Positions 16,356 to 36,928 of a stretch of DNA of 64,000 nucleotides are shown one piece after another. Positions within the stretch are counted from its first letter, which is position 1, and each line of letters begins with the position of its first letter. The position numbers and the translations under genes were made by a program. Source of the DNA: Hyphomicrobiales bacterium (lineage in GTDB: Bacteria > Pseudomonadota > Alphaproteobacteria > Rhizobiales > Xanthobacteraceae); the NCBI GenBank assembly GCA_017305715.1, contig JAFKKG010000031.1:1-64000 (forward strand). The letters are read 5' to 3'. Under the pieces are notes generated by a model. It ran no database searches and was not told where the DNA came from. It worked only from the letters and a program-made list of their open reading frames with translations.

Positions 16356-19300
16356 TCACTCCGCCGGACCGTGCGCGACATTTCCCACCGTTGCCTCGCC
16401 ATGCTGCGTCAGCGGGCGGTTGCCGGCCAGGGCGCGCAGCAGCACATAGAACATCGGCGTGAAGAAGATCCCGAACGCGGTGACGCCGATCATGCCTGAG
16501 AACACCGCAACGCCCATGGCGTGACGCATCTCGGATCCGGCGCCCGTGGAGATCACCAGCGGCACCACGCCCATGATGAAGGCCAGCGACGTCATCAGGA
16601 TCGGGCGCAGCCGCAAGCGGCTGGCTTCGATCGCGGCCTGCACCGGCGTGCGTCCGGCGAATTCCAGTTCGCGCGCGAATTCCACGATCAGGATGGCGTT
16701 CTTGGCCGACAGTCCTACCAGCACGATCAGGCCGATCTGGGTGAACACGTTGTTGTCGCCTTTGGTCAGCCAGACGCCGAGCATCGCCGCCAGCAATCCC
16801 ATCGGCACGATCATGATGATCGACAGCGGCAGGGTCAGGCTCTCATATTGCGCGGCGAGCACCAGGAAGACCAGCAGCAGCGCCACTGGAAACACGATCA
16901 GCGACGAATTGCCGGCGATGATTTCCTGATAGGTCAGGTCGGTCCACTCGAACGCGATGCCCTTGGGAAAGGTCTCCGCCGCGATCTTCTCCACCGCCGC
17001 CTGGGCCTGTCCGGTCGAATAGCCGGGCGCCGCGCCGCCATTGAGGTCGGCGGTGAGGAAGCCGTTGTAGCGCATGGCGCGCTCCGGCCCGGCGCTTTCC
17101 TTGATCTTCAGCAGCGCTGACAGCGGCACCATCTCGCCGGTGTCGGAACGCACCTTCAACAGCCCGACGTCATCGGCGCGGGCGCGGAACTTCGCGTCCG
17201 CCTGCACCCGCACCGAATAGGTACGGCCGAATTTGTTGAAGTCGTTGACGTAGAGCGAGCCGAGATAGATCTGCATGGTGTCGAACACGCTGGTCACGGG
17301 CACGCTGAGCTGCCGCGCCCGGGTGCGGTCGATATCGGCATAAAGCTGCGGCACGTTGACCTGATAGCTGGAGAACAGCCCGGCCAGTTGCGGCGCCGCG
17401 CTCGCCTTGGCGATGAACGCCTTGGTGGCGTCATTGAGCGCCTCATAGCCGAGCCCGGCGCGGTCCTCGATCTGCAGCTTGAAGCCGCCGATGGTGCCGA
17501 GCCCCGCCACCGGCGGCGGCGGGAACATGGCGATGAAGGCTTCCTGGATCGTGGCGAACCTGCCGTTGAGCTGGCCGGCGATCGCGCCCGCGCTGAGATT
17601 GGCCGCCTTGCGCTCTTCGAAAGGCTTTAGCGTGACGAACACGATTCCCGAATTCGAACTGTTGGTGAAGCCGTTGATCGACAGGCCGGGAAACGCCACG
17701 GCGCTTTCGACGCCCGGCAGTTTTAAGGCGATATCGCCCATGCGGCGGATCACCTCTTCGGTGCGGTCCAGCGTCGCGCCGTCGGGCAGTTGCGCGAAGC
17801 CGACCAGATACTGCTTGTCCTGGCCGGGGACAAAGCCGCCCGGCACCGCCTTGAACAATCCGAAGGTGACGCCGATCAGCGCGACATAGGCGACCATCAC
17901 GATCGCCCGCCGCGAGATCACCCGCTTGACGCCGCCGCCATAGGCTTCGGAGCTGCGGTGAAAGAAGCGGTTGAAACGCTGGAAGAACCAGCCGAGCACG
18001 CGGTCCATGCCGCGCGTCAGCGCGTCCTTTGGCGCGTCGTGGGATTTCAGCAATACCGCCGCCAGCGCCGGCGACAGCGTCAGCGAATTGAACGCGGAAA
18101 TCACCGTCGAGATCGCCACCGTCAGTGCGAACTGCTTGTAGAACTGACCGGTCAGGCCGGTAATGAACGCCAGCGGCACGAACACGGCGATCAGCACCAG
18201 CGCGATCGCGATGATCGGCCCGGTGACTTCCTGCATCGCCTGATACGCCGCCTCCTTGGGCGTCAGCCCCTGCTCGATATTGCGCTCGACGTTCTCGACC
18301 ACGACGATGGCGTCGTCGACCACGATGCCGATCGCCAGCACCAGCCCGAACAGCGTCAGCGCGTTGATCGAGAAACCGAACACATGCATGACGGCAAAGG
18401 TGCCGATGATGGAGACCGGCACCGCGATCAGCGGAATGATCGACGCCCGCCAGGTTTGCAGGAACAGGATGACCACCAGCACCACCAGGGCCACGGCTTC
18501 CAGCAGCGTGTGCACGACGGCCTCGATCGAGGCGCGGACGAATTGGGTGGGGTCATAGACGATGCTGTAATCCATGCCGTCCGGCATGTTCGCCTTCAGC
18601 TCGACCATCATCTTGCGGACGGTGTCGGAAATCTGGATCGCATTGGAGCCTGGCGACTGGAAGATCGGCACCGCGACCGCCGACTTGTTGTCCAGCAGCG
18701 AGCGCAGCGAATAGTCGGCGGCGCCAAGCTCGATCCGGGCGATGTCGCGCAGCCGCGTGACTTCGCCATTGGCGCCGGTCTTGACGATGATCTCGCCGAA
18801 CTCTTCCTCGGTCTGCAACCGTCCCTGCGCGTTGATGGAGAGCTGTAGATCGAGCCCGACCTCGCTCGGCGATGCGCCGACCACGCCGGCCGCCGCCTGC
18901 ACGTTCTGGGCGCGGATCTCGCGCACCACATCGGACGCCGACAGCCTGCGCTCGGCGACCTTCTGCGGATCGAGCCACACCCGCATCGAATAGTCGCCGG
19001 AGCCGAACAACTGCACCTGGCCGACGCCTTCGATGCGCGCCAGCCGGTCCTTGACGTTGAGCACCGCATAGTTGCGCAGATAGGTCATGTCGTAGCGGCC
19101 GTTCGGCGACAGCAGATGCACCACCATGGTCAGGTCAGGCGCGCTCTTGATCGTGGTGATGCCGAGGGTGCGGACTTCGGCCGGCAGCCGCGGCTCGGCC
19201 TGCGCCACCCGGTTTTGCACCAGTTGCTGCGCCTTGTCGGGATCGGTGCCGAGCCGGAACGTGACGTTGAGCGTCATCAATCCGTCGGTGGTGGCCTGGC

Positions 19301-19544
19301 TGCTCATATAGAGCATGCCTTCGACGCCGTTGATCTGCTCCTCGATCGGCGTCGATACCGTCTCGGCGATCACCTTGGGATTGGCGCCCGGATACTGTGC
19401 GCGCACCACCACCGTCGGCGGCGCCACTTCCGGATACTCCGAGATCGGCAGCGCCGGCAGCGACAGCAGTCCCGCGACGAAGATCAGGGTCGACAGAACG
19501 CCCGCGAAGATCGGCCGATCGATGAAAAATCTGGAAAAATTCAT
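16356..19544 (-). CDS. RND multidrug efflux transporter, HAE1 (AcrB/MexB) family
   Basis: 1062 residues, full length for the family. The N-terminus MNFSRFFIDRPIFAGVLSTLI is the classic inner-membrane start. The two halves each hold a large periplasmic loop and membrane helices; the proton-relay helix reads GLVLAIGIVVDDAIVVVENVER with two adjacent Asp residues, and its second-half Lys is in GLSAKNAILIVEFA. It forms the inner-membrane trimer of a tripartite pump that expels drugs, dyes or host compounds. Its adaptor gene is just upstream, but no TolC-type outer-membrane gene is adjacent. A TetR gene is divergent from the pair. Confidence 0.95.
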   Translation of the reverse strand: MNFSRFFIDRPIFAGVLSTLIFVAGLLSLPALPISEYPEVAPPTVVVRAQYPGANPKVIAETVSTPIEEQINGVEGMLYMSSQATTDGLMTLNVTFRLGTDPDKAQQLVQNRVAQAEPRLPAEVRTLGITTIKSAPDLTMVVHLLSPNGRYDMTYLRNYAVLNVKDRLARIEGVGQVQLFGSGDYSMRVWLDPQKVAERRLSASDVVREIRAQNVQAAAGVVGASPSEVGLDLQLSINAQGRLQTEEEFGEIIVKTGANGEVTRLRDIARIELGAADYSLRSLLDNKSAVAVPIFQSPGSNAIQISDTVRKMMVELKANMPDGMDYSIVYDPTQFVRASIEAVVHTLLEAVALVVLVVILFLQTWRASIIPLIAVPVSIIGTFAVMHVFGFSINALTLFGLVLAIGIVVDDAIVVVENVERNIEQGLTPKEAAYQAMQEVTGPIIAIALVLIAVFVPLAFITGLTGQFYKQFALTVAISTVISAFNSLTLSPALAAVLLKSHDAPKDALTRGMDRVLGWFFQRFNRFFHRSSEAYGGGVKRVISRRAIVMVAYVALIGVTFGLFKAVPGGFVPGQDKQYLVGFAQLPDGATLDRTEEVIRRMGDIALKLPGVESAVAFPGLSINGFTNSSNSGIVFVTLKPFEERKAANLSAGAIAGQLNGRFATIQEAFIAMFPPPPVAGLGTIGGFKLQIEDRAGLGYEALNDATKAFIAKASAAPQLAGLFSSYQVNVPQLYADIDRTRARQLSVPVTSVFDTMQIYLGSLYVNDFNKFGRTYSVRVQADAKFRARADDVGLLKVRSDTGEMVPLSALLKIKESAGPERAMRYNGFLTADLNGGAAPGYSTGQAQAAVEKIAAETFPKGIAFEWTDLTYQEIIAGNSSLIVFPVALLLVFLVLAAQYESLTLPLSIIMIVPMGLLAAMLGVWLTKGDNNVFTQIGLIVLVGLSAKNAILIVEFARELEFAGRTPVQAAIEASRLRLRPILMTSLAFIMGVVPLVISTGAGSEMRHAMGVAVFSGMIGVTAFGIFFTPMFYVLLRALAGNRPLTQHGEATVGNVAHGPAE

Positions 19545-19644
19545 GACGCTGTCTCGCTGATATCGGGGCTGCGAAGCGCAAGCCTCCCGGCGCGGCCAAC
19601 CGGGGTCGACCGCACTGATTCAATTCTGTTGTTTTCGATATTTT

Positions 19645-29624: not shown

Positions 29625-30809
29625 TTAAGCGCCCACGCTTTCGCCGAGCCACTCGATCGCGGCTTCGGTTCCGCCCTCGCCGTGGGGGATCTTGAGCGCC
29701 TTCAGGGCGACTTCGATGACGCCGAGCGTGCCGAGGATCATCGGCGCGTTGACATGGCCCATATGCGCGATCCGGAACGCCTGGCCGGAGAGGTCGCCAA
29801 TTCCGGTTCCGAGCACCACGCCGCATTTTTGCTTGCAATAGCGTTGCAGCGCGACGGGGTCGTGGCCGTTCATCAGCACCGTCGTCACCGTGTTGGAGCG
29901 CTCATTGGCCTCGGCGATATTGAAGCCGACGACCTGGCCTTCGGCCCACACCGCCACCGCGCGGCGCACGGCTTCGGCGAGCAGCCGGTGGCGAAGGAAG
30001 GCGTTTTCCAGCCCCTCGGCCTGCAGCAGGTCGATCGCCTTGCGCAGCGCGAACAGCAGATGCACCGGCGCGGTGCCGGCATATTTGCGGTAATGCTCGC
30101 TGCCTTCGCGCTCGGTCCAGTCCCAATAGGGCGTGCGCAGATTTGCCGTCTTGTGCACCGCGCGGGCGCGGTCGTTGGCGGCGACGAAGCCGAGGCCGGG
30201 CGGCGTCATCAGGCCCTTCTGCGATCCGGACATCGCGACGTCGATGCCCCATGCGTCCATCTCGAACGGCATGCAGCCTAGCGAGGCGACGGTATCGACC
30301 ATGAACAAAGCGGGATGGCCCGATGCCTTGATGACCTTGCCGATCGCTTCGATGTCGTTATAGGCGCCCGACGCGGTATCGACCTGCACCGCGACGATCG
30401 CCTTGATCTTGTGCTCCTTGTCCTGGCGCAGCCGCGCTTCGACCTCGGCGGGACGGATCGCGCGGCGCCAGTCGCCTTTCAGCACCTCGACGTCGGCGCC
30501 CATCGCGGAAGCGGCGTTGCCCCAGCCGATCGCGAAGCGGCCGCTTTCCAGCACCAGCACCTTGTCGCCGCGCGACAGCACGTTGGAGAGCGTCGCTTCC
30601 CAGGCGCCATGGCCGTTGGCGATGTAGATGTAGGACTGGCCCTTGGTGGCAAACAGTTTCGACAGATCACCCAGCAGGCCATCCGTCAGTTCGAACATCT
30701 CCCTGGAATAGATGTCGAGCGCCGGACGGTGCATTGCCTGCAGCACTTCGTCGGGCATGGTGGTGGGTCCGGGGATGGCCAGAAATTCCCGGCCCGCGCG
30801 AACGGTCAT
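29625..30809 (-). CDS. Class V aminotransferase, serine-glyoxylate/alanine-glyoxylate type
   Basis: 394 residues. PLP-binding lysine K198 lies in the family motif SGSQKGLMTPPGLGF, preceded by the cofactor Asp in FMVDTVASLG. The N-terminal GPTTMPDEVLQAMHRPALD stretch matches the family. The reaction moves the amino group of serine (or alanine) to glyoxylate, giving glycine and hydroxypyruvate, as in the serine cycle or photorespiratory-type glyoxylate detoxification. A GATAAGGAATAAG region precedes the ATG. It stands alone between repeats, so it is probably its own unit. Confidence 0.92.
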   Translation of the reverse strand: MTVRAGREFLAIPGPTTMPDEVLQAMHRPALDIYSREMFELTDGLLGDLSKLFATKGQSYIYIANGHGAWEATLSNVLSRGDKVLVLESGRFAIGWGNAASAMGADVEVLKGDWRRAIRPAEVEARLRQDKEHKIKAIVAVQVDTASGAYNDIEAIGKVIKASGHPALFMVDTVASLGCMPFEMDAWGIDVAMSGSQKGLMTPPGLGFVAANDRARAVHKTANLRTPYWDWTEREGSEHYRKYAGTAPVHLLFALRKAIDLLQAEGLENAFLRHRLLAEAVRRAVAVWAEGQVVGFNIAEANERSNTVTTVLMNGHDPVALQRYCKQKCGVVLGTGIGDLSGQAFRIAHMGHVNAPMILGTLGVIEVALKALKIPHGEGGTEAAIEWLGESVGA

Positions 30810-30990: not shown

Positions 30991-31827
30991 CTATTTTCCC
31001 ATCGCATCGGCGATCGCATGCCAGATCTGATCCTTGAGCTCGGTCGCCGGCGGGCTCGGAATCGTTATCGCTGGGCCGTCGCGCTTCTTGCAGGCTTCGA
31101 CCAGCCGCAGCACCCAGATCTCGCCGTCGGTGTAATAGAGGTCGCCGCCGCCATTATAGCCCGCAAGGGTCGGGCCGATGCCGGTCACCTGATATTTCGC
31201 GGTCACCATGCCGGCCTGTTCGAGGTCCGCCGTGAGGACCGCGCGTTCGGCGTCGAGGTCAGGGCCGATGTGATGCGTCACCGCGGCCGTGTAGTGGCTG
31301 ACGCCGACGCCGCGATCCTGCGTCGCTGCGCCGAGCCACACCGGGCGTTTTTCCTCGCCCTGGTCCAGCACTTTCCAGTAGCGCACGTGGTTGCGGCGGT
31401 CGGCGCTGGCGCCGATCGGCTTTTCATAAGCCAGGTCCTCGCGCCGCCCCTGATAATAGAGGTTGCTGACCGGCGCGTCCTTGTAAGGCCGGTCGAGCAG
31501 CACGCTGCCGACGATCTCGATCGAGGATTTGAGCGTGATCGGATCGGCGGGATACCATCCGGCCTCGTGCATGGCGCAGACCACGTCGCGCTGGTCGCCG
31601 ATCAGGCCGACATTCATGGGATCACCGGGAATGCCCTGCGCCGTGCGCGTCACCATCGGCAAATCAGCAAGGCCCTTCTGGTGCTCATAATGCGTCCACA
31701 GCCCGGGCAGGACGATGTAGGCGAGCAGCCCATAACCGCCGAGCATGATCAGCGTCAGCATCAAGGCGCGACGCAGCCCGCCGCGACGTTTTGGAAGTAT
31801 CGGGCCAAAGGTTTGAGTATCGGGCAC
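30991..31827 (-). CDS. LssY C-terminal-domain membrane protein
   Basis: 278 residues with a GTG start. One membrane helix near the N-terminus (RRALMLTLIMLGGYGLLAYIVLPGL) and an extracytoplasmic LssY_C domain with the signature DPMNVGLIGDQRDVVCAMHEAGWYPADPITLKSSI and LLDRPYKDAPVSNLYYQGRREDLAYEKPIG blocks. The domain occurs in membrane and lipid-phosphatase-type proteins; its activity is unknown, though LssY was named in a Legionella secretion locus. It is alone between a class V aminotransferase and the SNase-like gene, both on the same strand. Confidence 0.85.
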   Translation of the reverse strand: MPDTQTFGPILPKRRGGLRRALMLTLIMLGGYGLLAYIVLPGLWTHYEHQKGLADLPMVTRTAQGIPGDPMNVGLIGDQRDVVCAMHEAGWYPADPITLKSSIEIVGSVLLDRPYKDAPVSNLYYQGRREDLAYEKPIGASADRRNHVRYWKVLDQGEEKRPVWLGAATQDRGVGVSHYTAAVTHHIGPDLDAERAVLTADLEQAGMVTAKYQVTGIGPTLAGYNGGGDLYYTDGEIWVLRLVEACKKRDGPAITIPSPPATELKDQIWHAIADAMGK

Positions 31828-31985: not shown

Positions 31986-32744
31986 CTAGCGCTTGGTCTC
32001 GCGGCAGCCGGCGGCTTCGGCATCTTCGACCGAGCAGAACCAGCGCGTGCCCTTGCTGACATGCATCTCGATCTTGGCGTACCAGCGGCTGGCCGGCGTA
32101 TGATAGATGCATTCGCCGGACCGGTTGACGTTGCCCTTGATGGTGCAGTCGGGTGACGGCGCCGATGAACCGGAGGCCGATGCCTGCAGGATGGTGCTGG
32201 CGTTTTCGGGCGCCTTGGCCGCGCCGAGAATGGCGGTCTTCTTGTTGCGGGTACGCCAATCCCACGGCGCGATGAAGGCGCCCTGCCACATGCCGAGCTT
32301 GGCTTCGCGCGCGGCCTTTTCATCCGCTTCGTAGTCGCGGGAAATCCGCACGAACGCCAGCGCCCAGCCGTTGGAGACCATCCATTTCTGGATATCCTCG
32401 CCGTCGACATCGCAGCGCGCCACGGTGCGGCCGCGGCGATCGACGCTGCGGGCATGGCAAACCCAGCTCTTGTTGCCGACATGCGTGACCAGCGCTTCGC
32501 GCGCGGCAACGCCGCAGGTCCATCGCTCGCCTGAATTGTTGAGGCAGAGCTGGTCCGCCGCCGGCGCGTCGATGCCGCCCAGGCGGATGCGGGTATTGCC
32601 GATCGTGATCTGGTCGCCATCGCGGATTTTCGGGACACCGGTGATGTCGGCGGCCTGCGCCATCGCCGGCAGCAGCAACGCCAGAACGACGCAAAACCAG
32701 ATCTTCGATTTGCAAATCTTGGATTTCCGAATCGTTGATTTCAT
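31986..32744 (-). CDS. SNase-like thermonuclease-family protein, exported
   Basis: 252 residues from the ATG at 32744 (MKSTIRKSKICKSKIW). Signal peptide with core WFCVVLALLLPAMAQA. An OB-fold SNase domain follows with D43, R52/R54, the LGGIDAP loop, and GRTVARCDVDG for the second Arg. The loop that normally reads DAPE has A62 where the general-base Glu (E43 of the staphylococcal enzyme) is expected. Extra cysteines pair in CLNNSGERWTC and a C-terminal cysteine-rich region (FCSVEDAEAAGC). If active it would digest DNA outside the cytoplasm; the Glu change makes this doubtful. Confidence 0.8.
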   Translation of the reverse strand: MKSTIRKSKICKSKIWFCVVLALLLPAMAQAADITGVPKIRDGDQITIGNTRIRLGGIDAPAADQLCLNNSGERWTCGVAAREALVTHVGNKSWVCHARSVDRRGRTVARCDVDGEDIQKWMVSNGWALAFVRISRDYEADEKAAREAKLGMWQGAFIAPWDWRTRNKKTAILGAAKAPENASTILQASASGSSAPSPDCTIKGNVNRSGECIYHTPASRWYAKIEMHVSKGTRWFCSVEDAEAAGCRETKR

Positions 32745-32860
32745 GGAAAATCCCGGCGCGAATATGGGTACGATAATGGCGGTGATTGTGCGGACAATGA
32801 GGCCAGCTTGCCAGTGCTCCGGGGTCGCATCGCTTTCAACTTCCTGCGAGGGGGCAAGGC

Positions 32861-32955
32861 GAATGGCGAATAGGGAGTAGCGAATAGGGGAAGTGAAGGC
32901 GGCCCAACTCGATCCGCGTTTCCCCATTCGCTATTCGCCATTCGCTACTCGCCCC
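32861..32955. repeat. GCGAATAGCGAATGGCGA inverted repeat pair
   Basis: GAATGGCGAATAGGGAGTAG (continuing CGAATAGGGG) at 32861-32890 and the opposite-strand version at 32923-32955 (CATTCGCTATTCGCCATTCG continuing CTACTCGCCCC) form an imperfect hairpin. The right arm encodes the last residues of the 582-residue protein. A third unit lies at 35847-35880. Simple heptamer-like substructure GCGAATR suggests growth by slippage. Confidence 0.75.
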
Positions 32956-34679
32956 CTACCCATCATCACCCCTCTTGCCAGCGCCAGGCCCATCAGCACG
33001 AAGGCCGAGGTCACCTCGGGGCCGCCGACCAGGATGCGGGTCGGGGTCTTCATCTTGTTCCACTCATAGGCCTTGTAGGGACCATGCCGGCCGCCCTCGC
33101 CGAGATGGGCGATGATGCAGTGCAGCGCAGGGGTAAAGCTGGCCGCGTCGGCGCCGAGATGCGCCAGCGCCATCAGCGCCAGCGCGGCGTCGAAGGCATT
33201 CATCTGGTGGGCGATCAGTTCGGTCTGCACATAGGTCAGCACCCGGCCGCGGATGAACTCGAAGCTGTTTTCGGGGTCGATCGCCAGCCTCGCCGCCACC
33301 GGCAGTGCGATGAAGGCCGCATAGCAGCGGCCGAAATAGGCCGAGTACAGTTCCGGCAGATAATAGATGTGCGAGCGCGGATTGCTGAAGGCGCCGCTTT
33401 CGACCAGCCGCTTCTGGAAGCCGATGATGCGATGAACCGTTTCCAGCCGCGCCGGCGTCTCGATGATCTTCCAGCGCGTGAGGTTGCGGAAGCTGACTTC
33501 GAGAATGTCGAGATTGAGCGTGGGATCGAGGTCGTTGCCGTAGGGGCGATCGCCGGCGAGATTGTCGATCCAGGTGACGACGCCGCCTTCATAGTCGACA
33601 TTGTCGTTCAGCGGCACCGTCACGCGCGGCTCGTTGGCGCCCTCGCGCACCTGATAGCCGCGGTAGAAATCCAGCAGCGGCTGATCGAGGATCGGATCGG
33701 TCGAGCCGGCCTGCGTCGCCGCCGAGAACGAACAGGCCGTGGTGTCGCAGTCCGGCACATAGATGCCGAAGCCGAGATCCTGCTTGATCTGGGAAAAGAA
33801 TTTTGAAAAGCGCGGATGCGGCAGCGGCGCCAGCGCGGTTATCACGCGCACCGTCGAGCCGTCATGCGAGGGCACTTCCTCGGCGCTGGTGGTGAGGCAG
33901 AAATCCACCATGTCCGAAATGGCGCGGCGCGAGGCTGCCGTCTGATCCGCGGACGCCAGGCCGGTTTCGACAAAACTCAAGAGCGCCTCGGTGAAGAAGG
34001 CGTCGTAATAGGCCGAGCGGTGGCGGATCTGCATCGGCTCCCACATCGGCTCGGCAATCCCTGTCCAGGGCGGGTTGATCAGTGCGCGGGCCGGTGAATG
34101 CGCGATGAAGATCCGCGCCAGGCTGAACAGCAAGGTCGAGTTCTTGTAGCCGCGCGAATTGAGCCCGGTCAGCGCCATCAGCATTTCGCGCCCGCCCATG
34201 TCGGCATCGCCGAGCAGGTTGAACGCGGCATAGGTCGGGATGAAGCCGTTCCTGGCGAACGAGCGCAACAGATGCGCGCCGCAGGTGCGGATCACGCGCT
34301 CGATATCGGCGAGCTCGGGCGGCTTGGCCGCGGCCTCGGCCGGCGCCGGCTGGGGGTGACGGACGTCGATCGTCGTCATCAGGTCGGCGATGGGTTGGCC
34401 GACCGCCTGCCAGTCCGGCGCGTCTTCGTCGCGGGCGCGCCGCAGCGCCGCGCGCAACGCCTCGAGGCGGCGTTCGTCGCGCAGCTGCGGCAGCCCGGTC
34501 CGGCGCAACAGCGGCCGCAAGGCCGGGTTGCCGAGGGCCGTTCGATAGAATTTTCCGAGATGGGGGTCGCCGCCGCTGTAGTTGAGCAGCAGGGGGTCGC
34601 AGACGTCGTACAGCGACGGTCCGTCCTTGCGGGCGGTCAGCGCGCGGTAGGCGGCGCCGGCGAAATATTGAAAGCCCAT
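32931..34679 (-). CDS. Uncharacterised 582-residue protein with a DxDTTA motif like class II terpene cyclases
   Basis: Start chosen at the ATG at 34679 (MGFQYFAGAAYRAL), with AAGAGA upstream; the frame continues 32 codons higher. The protein is almost all helical with repeated segments, like an alpha/alpha toroid, and carries DCDTTA at residues 310-315 (VPDCDTTACSFSAA). Class II terpene cyclases use DxDDTA there as the proton donor, and some bacterial drimane-type cyclases use DxDTT. No class I DDxxD is obvious and the QW repeats of squalene-hopene cyclase are not seen. It has no signal peptide. A cyclase or a cyclase-derived protein are both possible; neighbours give no pathway. Confidence 0.5.
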   Translation of the reverse strand: MGFQYFAGAAYRALTARKDGPSLYDVCDPLLLNYSGGDPHLGKFYRTALGNPALRPLLRRTGLPQLRDERRLEALRAALRRARDEDAPDWQAVGQPIADLMTTIDVRHPQPAPAEAAAKPPELADIERVIRTCGAHLLRSFARNGFIPTYAAFNLLGDADMGGREMLMALTGLNSRGYKNSTLLFSLARIFIAHSPARALINPPWTGIAEPMWEPMQIRHRSAYYDAFFTEALLSFVETGLASADQTAASRRAISDMVDFCLTTSAEEVPSHDGSTVRVITALAPLPHPRFSKFFSQIKQDLGFGIYVPDCDTTACSFSAATQAGSTDPILDQPLLDFYRGYQVREGANEPRVTVPLNDNVDYEGGVVTWIDNLAGDRPYGNDLDPTLNLDILEVSFRNLTRWKIIETPARLETVHRIIGFQKRLVESGAFSNPRSHIYYLPELYSAYFGRCYAAFIALPVAARLAIDPENSFEFIRGRVLTYVQTELIAHQMNAFDAALALMALAHLGADAASFTPALHCIIAHLGEGGRHGPYKAYEWNKMKTPTRILVGGPEVTSAFVLMGLALARGVMMGRGRVANGE

Positions 34680-35002
34680 GCAGTCTCTTTTCGCCGGAAC
34701 GGTGGATCGAGGGGCGCCGGGTTCGCCGCCGGCCTTCAAGTCATTGAAAATGATACAAATCCGCAAGAAATACAAATGTGATGTACGTCACGGAGATTGT
34801 CCCGATCTGGTACCATAATCCAGGAGCGAGGAACGCTATGCACTCAGGACGGTTGCCCGGAAAGTCGGCGCGGGTTAAGGGTTTCTTTGTTGCGGTGCCG
34901 CAAATTGTGCGCAATTCGTCGGCACACCCTTTGGTAACCCCTCAAACCTAAACGGCACTGGCGCGACTAACTGGCGCGCTTTGGTCAACGATTGGGAATT
35001 GA
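34680..35002. other. Gene-poor 323-base gap between divergent genes, with a possible small ORF
   Basis: Probably holds the promoters of the DxDTTA protein (leftward) and the caspase-fold protein (rightward). The region 34750-34820 is AT-richer than its surroundings. A possible 37-codon frame at 34838-34951 is listed separately. No repeat or RNA gene is recognised. Confidence 0.5.
34838..34951 (+). CDS. Possible 37-residue small protein or leader
   Basis: ATG at 34838 preceded by CAGGAGCGAGGAACGCT, which offers an AGGAG site 13 bases and a GAGGAA site 6 bases upstream. It encodes a basic, amphipathic peptide (MHSGRLPGKSARVKGFFVAV...) ending TAA at 34949-34951, 51 bases before the caspase-fold gene. 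It could be a translated leader, but a chance frame is just as likely. Confidence 0.2.
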   Translation: MHSGRLPGKSARVKGFFVAVPQIVRNSSAHPLVTPQT

Positions 35003-35845
35003 ATGATGGACGGTAAGAAGCTTCGCATCTCCCGCCGCTCGGTCACGGTGGCCGTTGCTTTGGTCGGTCTGGTGTCGCTGGCGATCGGTGCCCATGCGGC
35101 TCTCAACAAGCGTTCGCTCGATGCCGCCAAGGCGATCGCGACCGAACAGAATTCCGAAGTCGCCACCACGGCTTCCCGCGTCGCACTGGTGATCGGCAAT
35201 GGCCATTATCCCGACGCGTCGGCGCCCCTCGCGCAGCCGATCAATGACGCGCGCGGCCTCACCGCGGCGTTGCGCGGCAAGGGCTTTGACGTCGACGTGG
35301 TCGAAGACGCCACCAAGGACGACATGGCCCGCGCGATCGGCCGCCTCAAGGCCAAGATCAAGCGCGACACCGTCGTGATGCTGTTCTTCGGCGGCTACGG
35401 CGTCCAGGTCGGCCGCGAGAGTTTCATGATCCCGATCGATGCTGCGATCTGGAAGGAAGCCGATGTCCGCCGCGACGGCGTCAGCATCGAATCCGTGCTG
35501 GATACGATGAAGGAGCAGGGCGCCAAGGCCAAGCTCGTCGTCGTCGACGCCTCCCGCCGCAATCCCTATGAGCGCCGCTTCCGTTCCTATTCCCACGGGC
35601 TGGCGCCGATCGCGGCACCGGAAAACGCGCTGATCCTGACCTCGGCGACGCCGGGCAAGGTCGCCGACGATTCCCAGGGTCCGTACAGCGTGCTGATGGC
35701 GGAGCTCTTGAACAACCTCGCCGCCCAGGCTGGCGCCGAAACCGCCTTCAACAAGACCCGCGTCGCGATCTCCCGCGCCAGCGAAGGCGAGCAGGTTCCC
35801 TCGGTGTCGTCTTCGCTGCTGGAAGACATCCGCATCGGCGGGTAA
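35003..35845 (+). CDS. Membrane-anchored caspase-fold pseudoenzyme
   Basis: 280 residues. After a positively charged N-terminus, one helix (VTVAVALVGLVSLAIGAHAA, about 14-33) anchors or exports the protein. The rest is a peptidase C14 fold: RVALVIGNGHYP (59-70) and AQPINDARGLTAALRGKGFDV are canonical. The catalytic His motif, normally SGHG, reads GGYG with Tyr at 132, and the catalytic Cys motif, normally DACRNNP, reads DASRRNP with Ser at 184. Both dyad residues are therefore lost while the fold motifs stay. A binding or scaffold role is more likely than proteolysis. Second ATG at 35006 is also possible. Confidence 0.88.
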   Translation: MMDGKKLRISRRSVTVAVALVGLVSLAIGAHAALNKRSLDAAKAIATEQNSEVATTASRVALVIGNGHYPDASAPLAQPINDARGLTAALRGKGFDVDVVEDATKDDMARAIGRLKAKIKRDTVVMLFFGGYGVQVGRESFMIPIDAAIWKEADVRRDGVSIESVLDTMKEQGAKAKLVVVDASRRNPYERRFRSYSHGLAPIAAPENALILTSATPGKVADDSQGPYSVLMAELLNNLAAQAGAETAFNKTRVAISRASEGEQVPSVSSSLLEDIRIGG

Positions 35846-35846
35846 C

Positions 35847-35880
35847 AGGCGAATAGCGAATGGCGAGGAGTGAACAGGGG
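35847..35880. repeat. GCGAATAGCGAATGGCGA repeat, third unit
   Basis: CAGGCGAATAGCGAATGGCG followed by AGGAGTGAACAGGGG, directly after the stop of the caspase-fold gene. Same unit as the pair at 32861-32955. Confidence 0.7.
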
Positions 35881-35921
35881 GCCAAGCGGTCCCCTTTTTC
35901 TTTGCCACGCGCCGCCAACCG

Positions 35922-36812
35922 CTATTTCTGCTCCGAGGCCACCATCACCGGGCGGACCGGATCGCCTTCGCGCAGCAGGGCGCCGGCGCGGGCGACTACG
36001 ATATCGCCTTCGACAATGCCTTCGCGGATCTCGACCTGGCCCTGCTGCATCAAGCCGGTTTCCACCCGCCGCGTCTCGACGCGCTGGCGTTTCACCACCT
36101 GCACCACGGTGCCGGCATTGCCATAGAGGATCGCGGTCAGCGGCACCGAGATGCCGCAGCTCTGGCCGGTCCTGATCCGCGCCCGCCCGGATGAATTCAC
36201 CAGGAGGCGCTGGTTGCCGGTGACGCCGATGAACACCTGCGCAAGCTGGCTGTTGGGCTCGACCGTGGTCGAGAGCCGCCGCACCCTGCCATCGACTTCG
36301 CCGGCGCCGATCACCTTGATCCGGGCGTCCTGGTTGATCTGAAGTTTTGAAATGTCGCGGGTCGGGACCAGGCCGACCAGGTCGAACTCGCTGCGTGCGA
36401 TGATCGAGAACAGCGCCTCGCCCTTGCCCGACGCCATCGCGCCGACGGCGGCGGTCGAGGCCGAGACCACCCCGGCGACCGGGGCCTGCACCAGCACGGT
36501 GCCGCCTTCGGGCAGCGTCAGCCGGGCCAAGGTTTGTCCGGCGGTGACGGTAGCGCCGGGATCGACCAGCACTTCGGCCACCTTCAGCCCCATGCGCTCG
36601 GGCCGCACTGGCGTTTCCTCGCGCGGGATAATGGTGCCGGAGACCTCGACATTGTTGCCGAAGCAGGATTTTGCCGCCTTGAACACCGTGACCGCCGCGC
36701 CCCGCGGCGCGCCTTCCTCGTCGGCGGCGAAGGCGGACGGTGCGGCGAGGCTCAGCGCCCCCAGCAGCAGGAGGGCAGGCAGCCTGACGTCGCGCGCGGT
36801 GTGCATCGGCAT
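35922..36812 (-). CDS. HlyD/RND-type periplasmic adaptor, orphan
   Basis: 296 residues from the ATG at 36812 (MPMHTARDVRLPALLLLGAL); upstream in-frame starts exist but give an unlikely leader. A signal peptide ending near AFAAD, then a biotinyl-lipoyl-like hairpin (MGLKVAEVLVDPGATVTAGQTLARL, LVQAPVAGVVSASTAAVG) and a beta-barrel region (ISKLQINQDARIKVIG). A single cysteine (SCFGNN) lies at the start of the mature protein. It resembles adaptors of RND or MacAB-type pumps but lacks the long coiled coil, and no pump gene is adjacent; the partner must be elsewhere. Confidence 0.8.
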   Translation of the reverse strand: MPMHTARDVRLPALLLLGALSLAAPSAFAADEEGAPRGAAVTVFKAAKSCFGNNVEVSGTIIPREETPVRPERMGLKVAEVLVDPGATVTAGQTLARLTLPEGGTVLVQAPVAGVVSASTAAVGAMASGKGEALFSIIARSEFDLVGLVPTRDISKLQINQDARIKVIGAGEVDGRVRRLSTTVEPNSQLAQVFIGVTGNQRLLVNSSGRARIRTGQSCGISVPLTAILYGNAGTVVQVVKRQRVETRRVETGLMQQGQVEIREGIVEGDIVVARAGALLREGDPVRPVMVASEQK

Positions 36813-36928
36813 CTCATTCCAGTCGTTGCCCGTTTCCGGGTCCATGGATACCAGATGCCCGACCGGCGCGCCAAGAGGCCAGGAGGTCCACCAAGGCAAG
36901 GTCCGACAAGGCGCCCCAAATACCGCTG

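Follow-up and report, generated by a model that had tools for sequence, protein, structure and literature searches.

A dyad-less caspase-fold protein of Hyphomicrobiales that co-occurs with one RND exporter

Pseudo-orthocaspases are p20 proteins whose catalytic dyad is replaced, and according to PMC6426788 561 of the 582 proteins of this kind in Alphaproteobacteria are found in Rhizobiales. Forms with a YS, YA, or FS pair are described there for Rhizobiales and cyanobacteria, with TPRs following the FS domains, and the cyanobacterial forms are reported to have a signal-like N-terminus and a retained acidic pocket. Functions that have been put forward for pseudo-caspases include photosynthesis (PMC6426788, which ties the alphaproteobacterial proteins to phototrophy on an order-by-order basis) and a part in oxidative stress or in cell death (PMC7889975). 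No published link between a pseudo-caspase and an RND exporter was found in the open-access literature. Here, we describe a pseudo-orthocaspase encoded in a 64,000-nucleotide stretch of a Hyphomicrobiales genome (hereafter the window); its kind is already described, namely as the YS/FS pseudo-orthocaspases of Rhizobiales (PMC6426788). The names used are coined here: psiOC1 for this protein, psiOC2 for a TPR-bearing paralogue of about 510 aa, DUF614 for the head-to-head neighbor gene, and MFP1 and MFP2 for the two RND adaptors. The coordinates of the features are collected in Table 1.

psiOC1 is assigned to the Peptidase C14 superfamily by its match to Pfam PF00656 (E 4.8e-35, 121.8 bits, the curated cut-off being 21.4), which covers profile positions 2–230 of 233. 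Its signature segments read FFGGYGVQ, containing Tyr132, and VVDASRRNP, containing Ser184, and Tyr132 aligns onto the histidine of MALT1. Judged by its sequence, psiOC1 lacks the His-Cys dyad that marks an active orthocaspase or metacaspase and corresponds to a p20 domain with a substituted dyad, in this respect matching the pseudo-orthocaspase as described in PMC6426788. The description there also has the p10 domain missing, and the PF00656 match of psiOC1 extends to position 230 of the 233-position profile. The first-pass annotation of this DNA had claimed a caspase fold with both catalytic residues replaced, which is borne out by the profile score and by the presence of Tyr132 and Ser184 where the dyad would be expected. 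Against NCBIfam NF047832 (EACC1-associated caspase), psiOC1 scores 40.5 bits, below the cut-off of 140, and its match to PADLOC PDLC02987 (anti-phage defense caspase) is weak (26.7 bits, E 7.6e-7, profile positions 5–157 of 453); PHROGs gave zero matches. The Ig-like domain next to p20, a trait of paracaspases, is absent from psiOC1, with PF00656 alone being found in its 280 aa.

The highest 19-residue Kyte-Doolittle window of psiOC1 scores 2.24 and starts at residue 16, compared to a maximum of 0.94 beyond residue 60, and residues 29–37 have a mean conservation of 95% in the 56-row alignment A3. An N-terminal membrane segment had been annotated before; the hydrophobic segment stands, but its sequence fits a cleavable signal peptide as well as a signal anchor. 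As regards a possible Tat (twin-arginine) signal, SRR is found in 55 of the 56 A3 rows, yet L095 has RH and L093 has HR. The gene had also been credited with its own promoter region, for which a scan of positions 34,600–36,000 for the sigma-70-like type found no candidate; terminator-like sites number four in the same region vs. a mean of 1.7 in shuffled sequences.

Table 1. Features of the psiOC1 locus (positions in the window)
Feature	Position	Strand	Basis or remark
SNase, staphylococcal-nuclease-like protein, conserved next neighbor	31986..32927	-	
DUF614, 582 aa from probable start, head-to-head with psiOC1	32931..34679	-	predicted fold nearest drimenol synthase
Divergent intergenic region psiOC1/DUF614, 323 bp if the DUF614 start is 34679	34680..35002	.	
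psiOC1 pseudo-orthocaspase, 280 aa, ATG start	35003..35845 (stop included)	+	genuine ORF
psiOC1 N-terminal hydrophobic segment, residues about 13–34, running into conserved AHAALNKR	35039..35104	+	hydropathy
psiOC1 C14 (caspase) domain, residues 59–274	35177..35824	+	PF00656 match
psiOC1 codon of Asp82, corresponding to MALT1 S1-pocket residue Asp365	35246..35248	+	alignment
psiOC1 codon of Tyr132, catalytic-His position; Y or F among orthologues	35396..35398	+	
psiOC1 codon of Asp182, corresponding to MALT1 S1-pocket residue Asp462	35546..35548	+	alignment
psiOC1 codon of Ser184, catalytic-Cys position; Ser in 56/56 rows of alignment A3	35552..35554	+	
Terminator-like hairpin and T tail downstream of psiOC1	35876..35895	+	terminator scan
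MFP2, RND periplasmic adaptor, convergent neighbor of psiOC1	35922..36899	-	

The named relatives of the window are nearly all Bradyrhizobium, and we take its source for a soil bacterium of that genus. A genome-contig scan gave 246 confirmed relatives, the best 80 of which form a Bradyrhizobium-centered set, hereafter the named loci. The first-pass annotation had proposed checking whether the YS pair is conserved among orthologues and had taken orthologues with His and Cys as the observation that would speak against it; among these best 80 of 246, 74 have Y-S, 6 have F-S, and none has H-C. The psiOC1 proteins fetched from other genera have Y-S or F-S likewise. A sequence error or recent mutation behind the Y-S pair is rejected on the same zero of 80. 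Near-full-length psiOC1 orthologues of at least 69% identity and without internal stops are present in 96 of 98 genomes of the same genus (the own genome included), the exceptions being G006 (93% complete) and G035 (80% complete). The median dN/dS, a simple Nei-Gojobori estimate uncorrected for codon bias, is 0.33 for the whole gene and 0.235 for residues 58–200, and psiOC1 is, by this estimate, under purifying selection. Together with the stop-free matches throughout the genus, these values led us to reject the view of psiOC1 as a decaying pseudogene. Residues 182–200 (DASRRNPYERRFRSYSHGL) are on average 97% conserved vs. 88% for residues 58–200, and selection therefore appears to guard that surface despite the loss of the dyad. 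Since the C14 domain, the hydrophobic N-terminus, and purifying selection are found together, a non-catalytic role is likely.

The best solved relative of psiOC1, by sequence and by fold, is MALT1 (structure search E 1.0e-9). The residues of its P1-arginine pocket are D365, D462, and E500 (PMC4357240); D365 aligns with D82 of psiOC1 and D462 with D182, and E500 is unplaced. Both psiOC1 positions hold Asp in all 56 rows of A3. As D82 and D182 are kept, it is plausible from the alignment that psiOC1 binds the side chain of Arg or Lys and does not cleave. For pocket geometry, the AlphaFold model (mean pLDDT 60.6) is too poor.

The own genome encodes 15 C14 domains, 11 with H-C and 4 without, the latter being the YS protein of the window, an FS protein on contig C41, another FS protein at C18:105046, and a YA protein on C36. 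In a 68-row tree of C14 domains, a DASRRNP-type clade (49 rows) is split with support of 100/99 from the 19 rows that hold every H-C protein, and psiOC1 (28 rows) and psiOC2 (18 rows) are supported at 100/100 and 98/96, respectively. As far as the sequences tell, the DASRRNP-type pseudo-caspase clade has a single origin in this sampled tree. The Tyr-Ala pseudo-caspase of the own genome (C36:147496-148137, L045) is placed among the H-C proteins, which therefore represents a second, independent loss of the dyad; the inner order of the H-C part is unsure because of long branches there, one of them at the junction with the pseudo-caspase clade. The psiOC2-type proteins carry Y-S as well as F-S, and Ala is found at the Ser position in the related pseudo-caspases L196, L197, L203, and L205. 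Some genomes of the same genus contain, off the locus, a second, diverged psiOC1-like YS protein (L048, L051, L052, L057; L046, L047) of 49–54% or about 62% identity. A record titled Croceibacterium sp. MAG (L135) holds a psiOC1 that is 78% identical and perhaps represents a mis-binned Bradyrhizobium-type contig.

psiOC1 had been annotated as standing alone, and this no longer holds: it lies in a conserved neighborhood of DUF614, SNase, and MFP2 and co-occurs with one RND exporter. Among the named loci (best 80 of 246), DUF614 is found in 71 of the 72 with room upstream and is divergent in 75/75, and MFP2 lies less than 1 kb from psiOC1 in 70 of the 73 with room downstream. L153 is the sole named locus with upstream room in which DUF614 was not found. 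As a control, we considered those 57 of the named loci (best 80 of 246) that extend about 10 kb to each side. DUF614, SNase, and MFP2 are each present in all 57; six more distant genes were compared with them, of which a 394-aa gene also reaches 57/57 and the other five range from 11 to 33. Constant order within the genus is thus not special to DUF614, SNase, and MFP2, because the 394-aa gene (29628–30809, minus strand) is as constant as these near neighbors. An LssY_C-domain protein (30994–31827, minus strand) is seen in 33/57 of the full loci. Across genera, the DUF614/SNase/MFP2 order stands out more. In 22 other loci, taken from seven genera and 14 to 20 kb long, DUF614 is next to psiOC1 in 22/22, MFP2 in 18/22, and SNase in 16/22, and genes further out that pass the display cut occur in 4 to 12, all counts except that of DUF614 being lower bounds because these loci are off-center from psiOC1.

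In other genera, the psiOC1 stretch continues with an RND pump, MFP1, an OmpA-family protein, and psiOC2. In the own genome, these form a compact psiOC2-OmpA-MFP1-RND run on contig C41 (L204), where the associated pump gene occupies C41:262004-265090, and psiOC1 is located on C18. The closest PDB chain of the associated pump is MdtB. The window itself contains a different RND pump gene about 15 kb from psiOC1 (16437–19547, minus strand), with 30% identity to the associated one. psiOC1 has a terminator-like hairpin of its own, and in none of the loci examined does psiOC1 lie within the pump run. In three loci without psiOC1, DUF614 adjoins MFP2 (L194, L200) or lies 5 kb off (L198), followed by RND and MFP1. 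psiOC1 therefore possibly arose by a duplication of psiOC2 into the DUF614/MFP2 site, as these gene orders suggest. The psiOC2-OmpA-MFP1-RND run was also found in two genomes from another family of the order (G502 and G460), with pumps 72 and 74% identical and pseudo-caspase dyads Y-A and F-S; psiOC1 was not among the matches listed for them.

The co-occurrence was counted in a family sample of 198 genomes, 11 of which belong to the own genus. Matches with E <1e-100 and at least 60% identity define 51/198 genomes as psiOC1 carriers, and psiOC2-like proteins are matches of E 1e-57 or better. DUF614 was found in 62 of the 198 genomes and the PF00124 reaction center in 25. A pump of at least 85% identity is present in 50/198 (partial in G167, G244, and G271), and 16 more have one of 65–80%. 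By the former cut, 50/51 psiOC1 carriers vs. 0/147 non-carriers have the pump; the carrier without a pump match is G267 (86% complete). By a wider cut, 69/198 genomes have psiOC1 or a psiOC2-like protein, 66 have an RND pump of at least 59% identity, and 66 have both, where the identity cuts were set after seeing a gap from 65 to 58% in the match list and all co-occurrence counts ignore ancestry. The association between psiOC1 and the pump is accordingly confounded by shared ancestry, and a p-value computed for it has no meaning as a probability. A pseudo-caspase without the pump occurs in G176 and G189 (psiOC2-like) and in G267 (psiOC1). Among the 18 genomes with a psiOC2-like protein only, the dyad was read in five and is FS (L198), YS (L200), or YA (L196, L197, L203). 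Homologous pumps of 55–58% identity are also found where the clade gives no match at E 1e-57, and the wider pump group therefore does not need a pseudo-caspase.

A related genus (g28) is informative on this point. Eight of its 10 sampled genomes have psiOC1 along with DUF614 and, elsewhere, psiOC2, MFP1, RND, and MFP2; in G202, for example, psiOC1 is located at 5.23 Mb and the pump at 1.03 Mb of a 5.3-Mb contig. In the remaining two, G183 and G284, psiOC1, psiOC2, RND, and both adaptors were not found (MFP1 was judged via the MFP2 query, which gave 34–37% matches in the other eight genomes, and OmpA was outside the search), and DUF614 and SNase are kept. Because the genes are jointly absent from two separate places, this argues for a shared function, and the joint absence may be a single event. 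These two genomes are smaller than the others (4.1 vs. 5.0–5.6 Mb).

The co-occurrence with one envelope export pump points to a job in the envelope and not in cell death or photosynthesis. We consider it moderately probable that psiOC1 is an envelope pseudo-orthocaspase that has lost its dyad and serves one RND exporter as a non-cleaving scaffold or peptide-binder. psiOC1, which keeps its C14 domain along with the acidic pocket residues that bind Arg or Lys in its relatives, would be located in the envelope, either signal-anchored or periplasmic and most likely at the periplasmic face of the inner membrane. The exporter would be built from the pump, two adaptors, the OmpA-family protein, and, in most cases, another pseudo-caspase that bears TPRs, and psiOC1 may grip or recognize a basic stretch in a partner within this exporter, leaving it uncut. 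The dyad loss, its conservation, the single origin in the sampled tree, the pocket residues, the run of psiOC2 with the pump, and the shared presence and absence with the pump are observed in the sequences; the periplasmic side, the physical contact with the exporter, and the binding of a peptide are what we infer in this proposal. The separate contigs of psiOC1 and the pump in the own genome, the hairpin of psiOC1, and the genomes with a pseudo-caspase but no pump (G176, G189, G267) speak against it.

The constant company of DUF614 suggests another partner. DUF614 is without a match in Pfam, NCBIfam, PHROGs, and PADLOC, and has no relative in the PDB by sequence. Its AlphaFold model (mean pLDDT 78.0, pTM 0.83) is matched best by a bacterial drimenol synthase in Foldseek (E 6.0e-5, probability 1.00, TM 0.38–0.49), followed by the type II cyclase MstE (E 3.7e-3) and, more weakly, by complement C3/C4 fragments. 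The segment PDCDTTA (D310-C-D312-T-T) is invariant in 44 rows, and DxDTT is the protonation motif in the terpene synthase beta domain of drimenol synthase (PMC9128629, PMC12365925). Going by the predicted fold, DUF614 is likely a class II cyclase-like protein and possibly an uncharacterized cyclase. psiOC1 could then be a partner of DUF614 with the pump tie being secondary, for example if both handled the DUF614 product. The divergent arrangement in the named loci (best 80 of 246) and the presence of DUF614 in all 22 other loci of seven genera agree with such a pairing, as does its presence in 50/51 carriers of the family sample. However, G234 has psiOC1, a psiOC2-like protein, and the RND pump and lacks DUF614, and 12 genomes have DUF614 without psiOC1, including the pump-less G183 and G284. 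Moreover, DUF614 was found in 10 of the 297 genomes of an order-wide sample, all from two genera of the own family, and those 10 include neither G460 nor G502, in both of which the psiOC2 run and its pump are present. We regard this pairing as an unlikely main role.

psiOC1 could also act as a decoy or an allosteric regulator of active H-C orthocaspases, in analogy to cFLIP, which is a decoy and regulator for caspase-8. The own genome would offer targets, as it has 11 H-C paralogues beside its four pseudo ones. An H-C orthocaspase is also found in at least 6/22 tabulated psiOC2 loci and directly adjoins psiOC2 in at least 4 (L095, L097, L198, L200), these counts being lower bounds because several stretches end near psiOC2. 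On the other hand, psiOC1 is the only C14 domain found in G048, a genome of the same genus that is 99% complete, and therefore regulates no other C14 protein there and manages without psiOC2; this weakens the decoy role as a general function. In that genome, psiOC1, RND, MFP1, and MFP2 lie together with DUF614 and SNase on one 20-kb stretch (L107). The converse is seen in the g28 genomes without psiOC1, G183 and G284, which have one C14 protein each, that of G284 being an H-C orthocaspase. In the own genome, the contig that carries psiOC1 has zero H-C genes, and a single C14 gene, a pseudo one, lies less than 10 kb from an RND gene. Based on these comparisons, we judge the decoy role improbable. 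The first-pass annotation had suggested a regulatory, decoy, or scaffold role; a non-catalytic role is likely in view of the selection on the gene, but acting on active caspases, as their decoy or regulator, does not fit as a general function, given G048 and G284.

A photosynthesis-linked function, as PMC6426788 proposes, gains some appeal from the family sample, in which psiOC1 is carried by 12/25 genomes with a reaction center vs. 39/173 others (Fisher p 0.012, uncorrected for ancestry). Yet PF00124 is absent in 39/51 psiOC1 carriers, the own genome included, and 13/25 phototrophs lack psiOC1. Since most carriers are without PF00124, the function of psiOC1 cannot depend on photosynthesis, and we consider the link unsupported and, at genome level, largely refuted for the psiOC1 clade, which makes it a very remote explanation. 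In a quickly built tree of psiOC1 with 68 rows (59 with Y and 9 with F), residue 132 has changed between Tyr and Phe at least eight times, and its hydroxyl group is dispensable because the two interchange so often. It is just as improbable that the Tyr/Ser pair forms a new catalytic arrangement (a serine peptidase or other hydrolase): in its favor, Ser184 is invariant in 56/56 A3 rows and encoded by TCN codons, but Tyr132 has repeatedly become Phe and the related L196, L197, L203, and L205 have Ala at the Ser position.

The envelope reading, in which psiOC1 serves one RND exporter, can be extended, although we consider the extension unlikely. A class of Hyphomicrobiales RND exporters might have recruited dead caspases as fixed subunits of the envelope, with a TPR-bearing one encoded in the pump run and a shorter, anchored one reading a basic peptide within the assembly. 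Such a system might, in Bradyrhizobium and related bacteria, export the DUF614 product or respond to it, and the caspase fold would be structural in transport and unrelated to cell death. If the envelope reading itself is right, the caspase fold would serve in an envelope complex without acting as an enzyme. Why bacteria keep many dyad-less caspase-fold proteins is a question that the tight link to one pump, together with G048, makes testable.

Several known systems resemble parts of this locus. By gene content, the exporter can be likened to TriABC-OpmH (PMC6394551), in which one RND pump is accompanied by two different adaptor genes, but the available text of PMC6394551 does not mention caspase-fold subunits for this type. 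psiOC1 matches two of the three S1-pocket acids of the paracaspase MALT1, which differs in being an animal protease that is active, has the H-C dyad, and carries additional domains. The pseudo-metacaspase TbMC4 of Trypanosoma brucei has the same YS double replacement as psiOC1; unlike psiOC1, it is a eukaryotic metacaspase that is processed by an active metacaspase as part of a cascade (PMC6426788). SyOC of Synechocystis sp. PCC 6803 is a pseudo-orthocaspase too, whose deletion leads to a higher tolerance of H2O2 (PMC7889975), but it has a Tyr-Gly dyad (PMC6426788, Table 1), comes from another lineage, and is not linked to a pump in the accessible part of PMC7889975. The pseudo-orthocaspases of PMC6426788 share with psiOC1 a p20 domain whose His is replaced by Tyr or Phe and whose Cys is replaced by Ser or Ala; for them, photosynthesis is proposed and an export pump is not mentioned in the available sections, whereas 39/51 carriers here are without PF00124.
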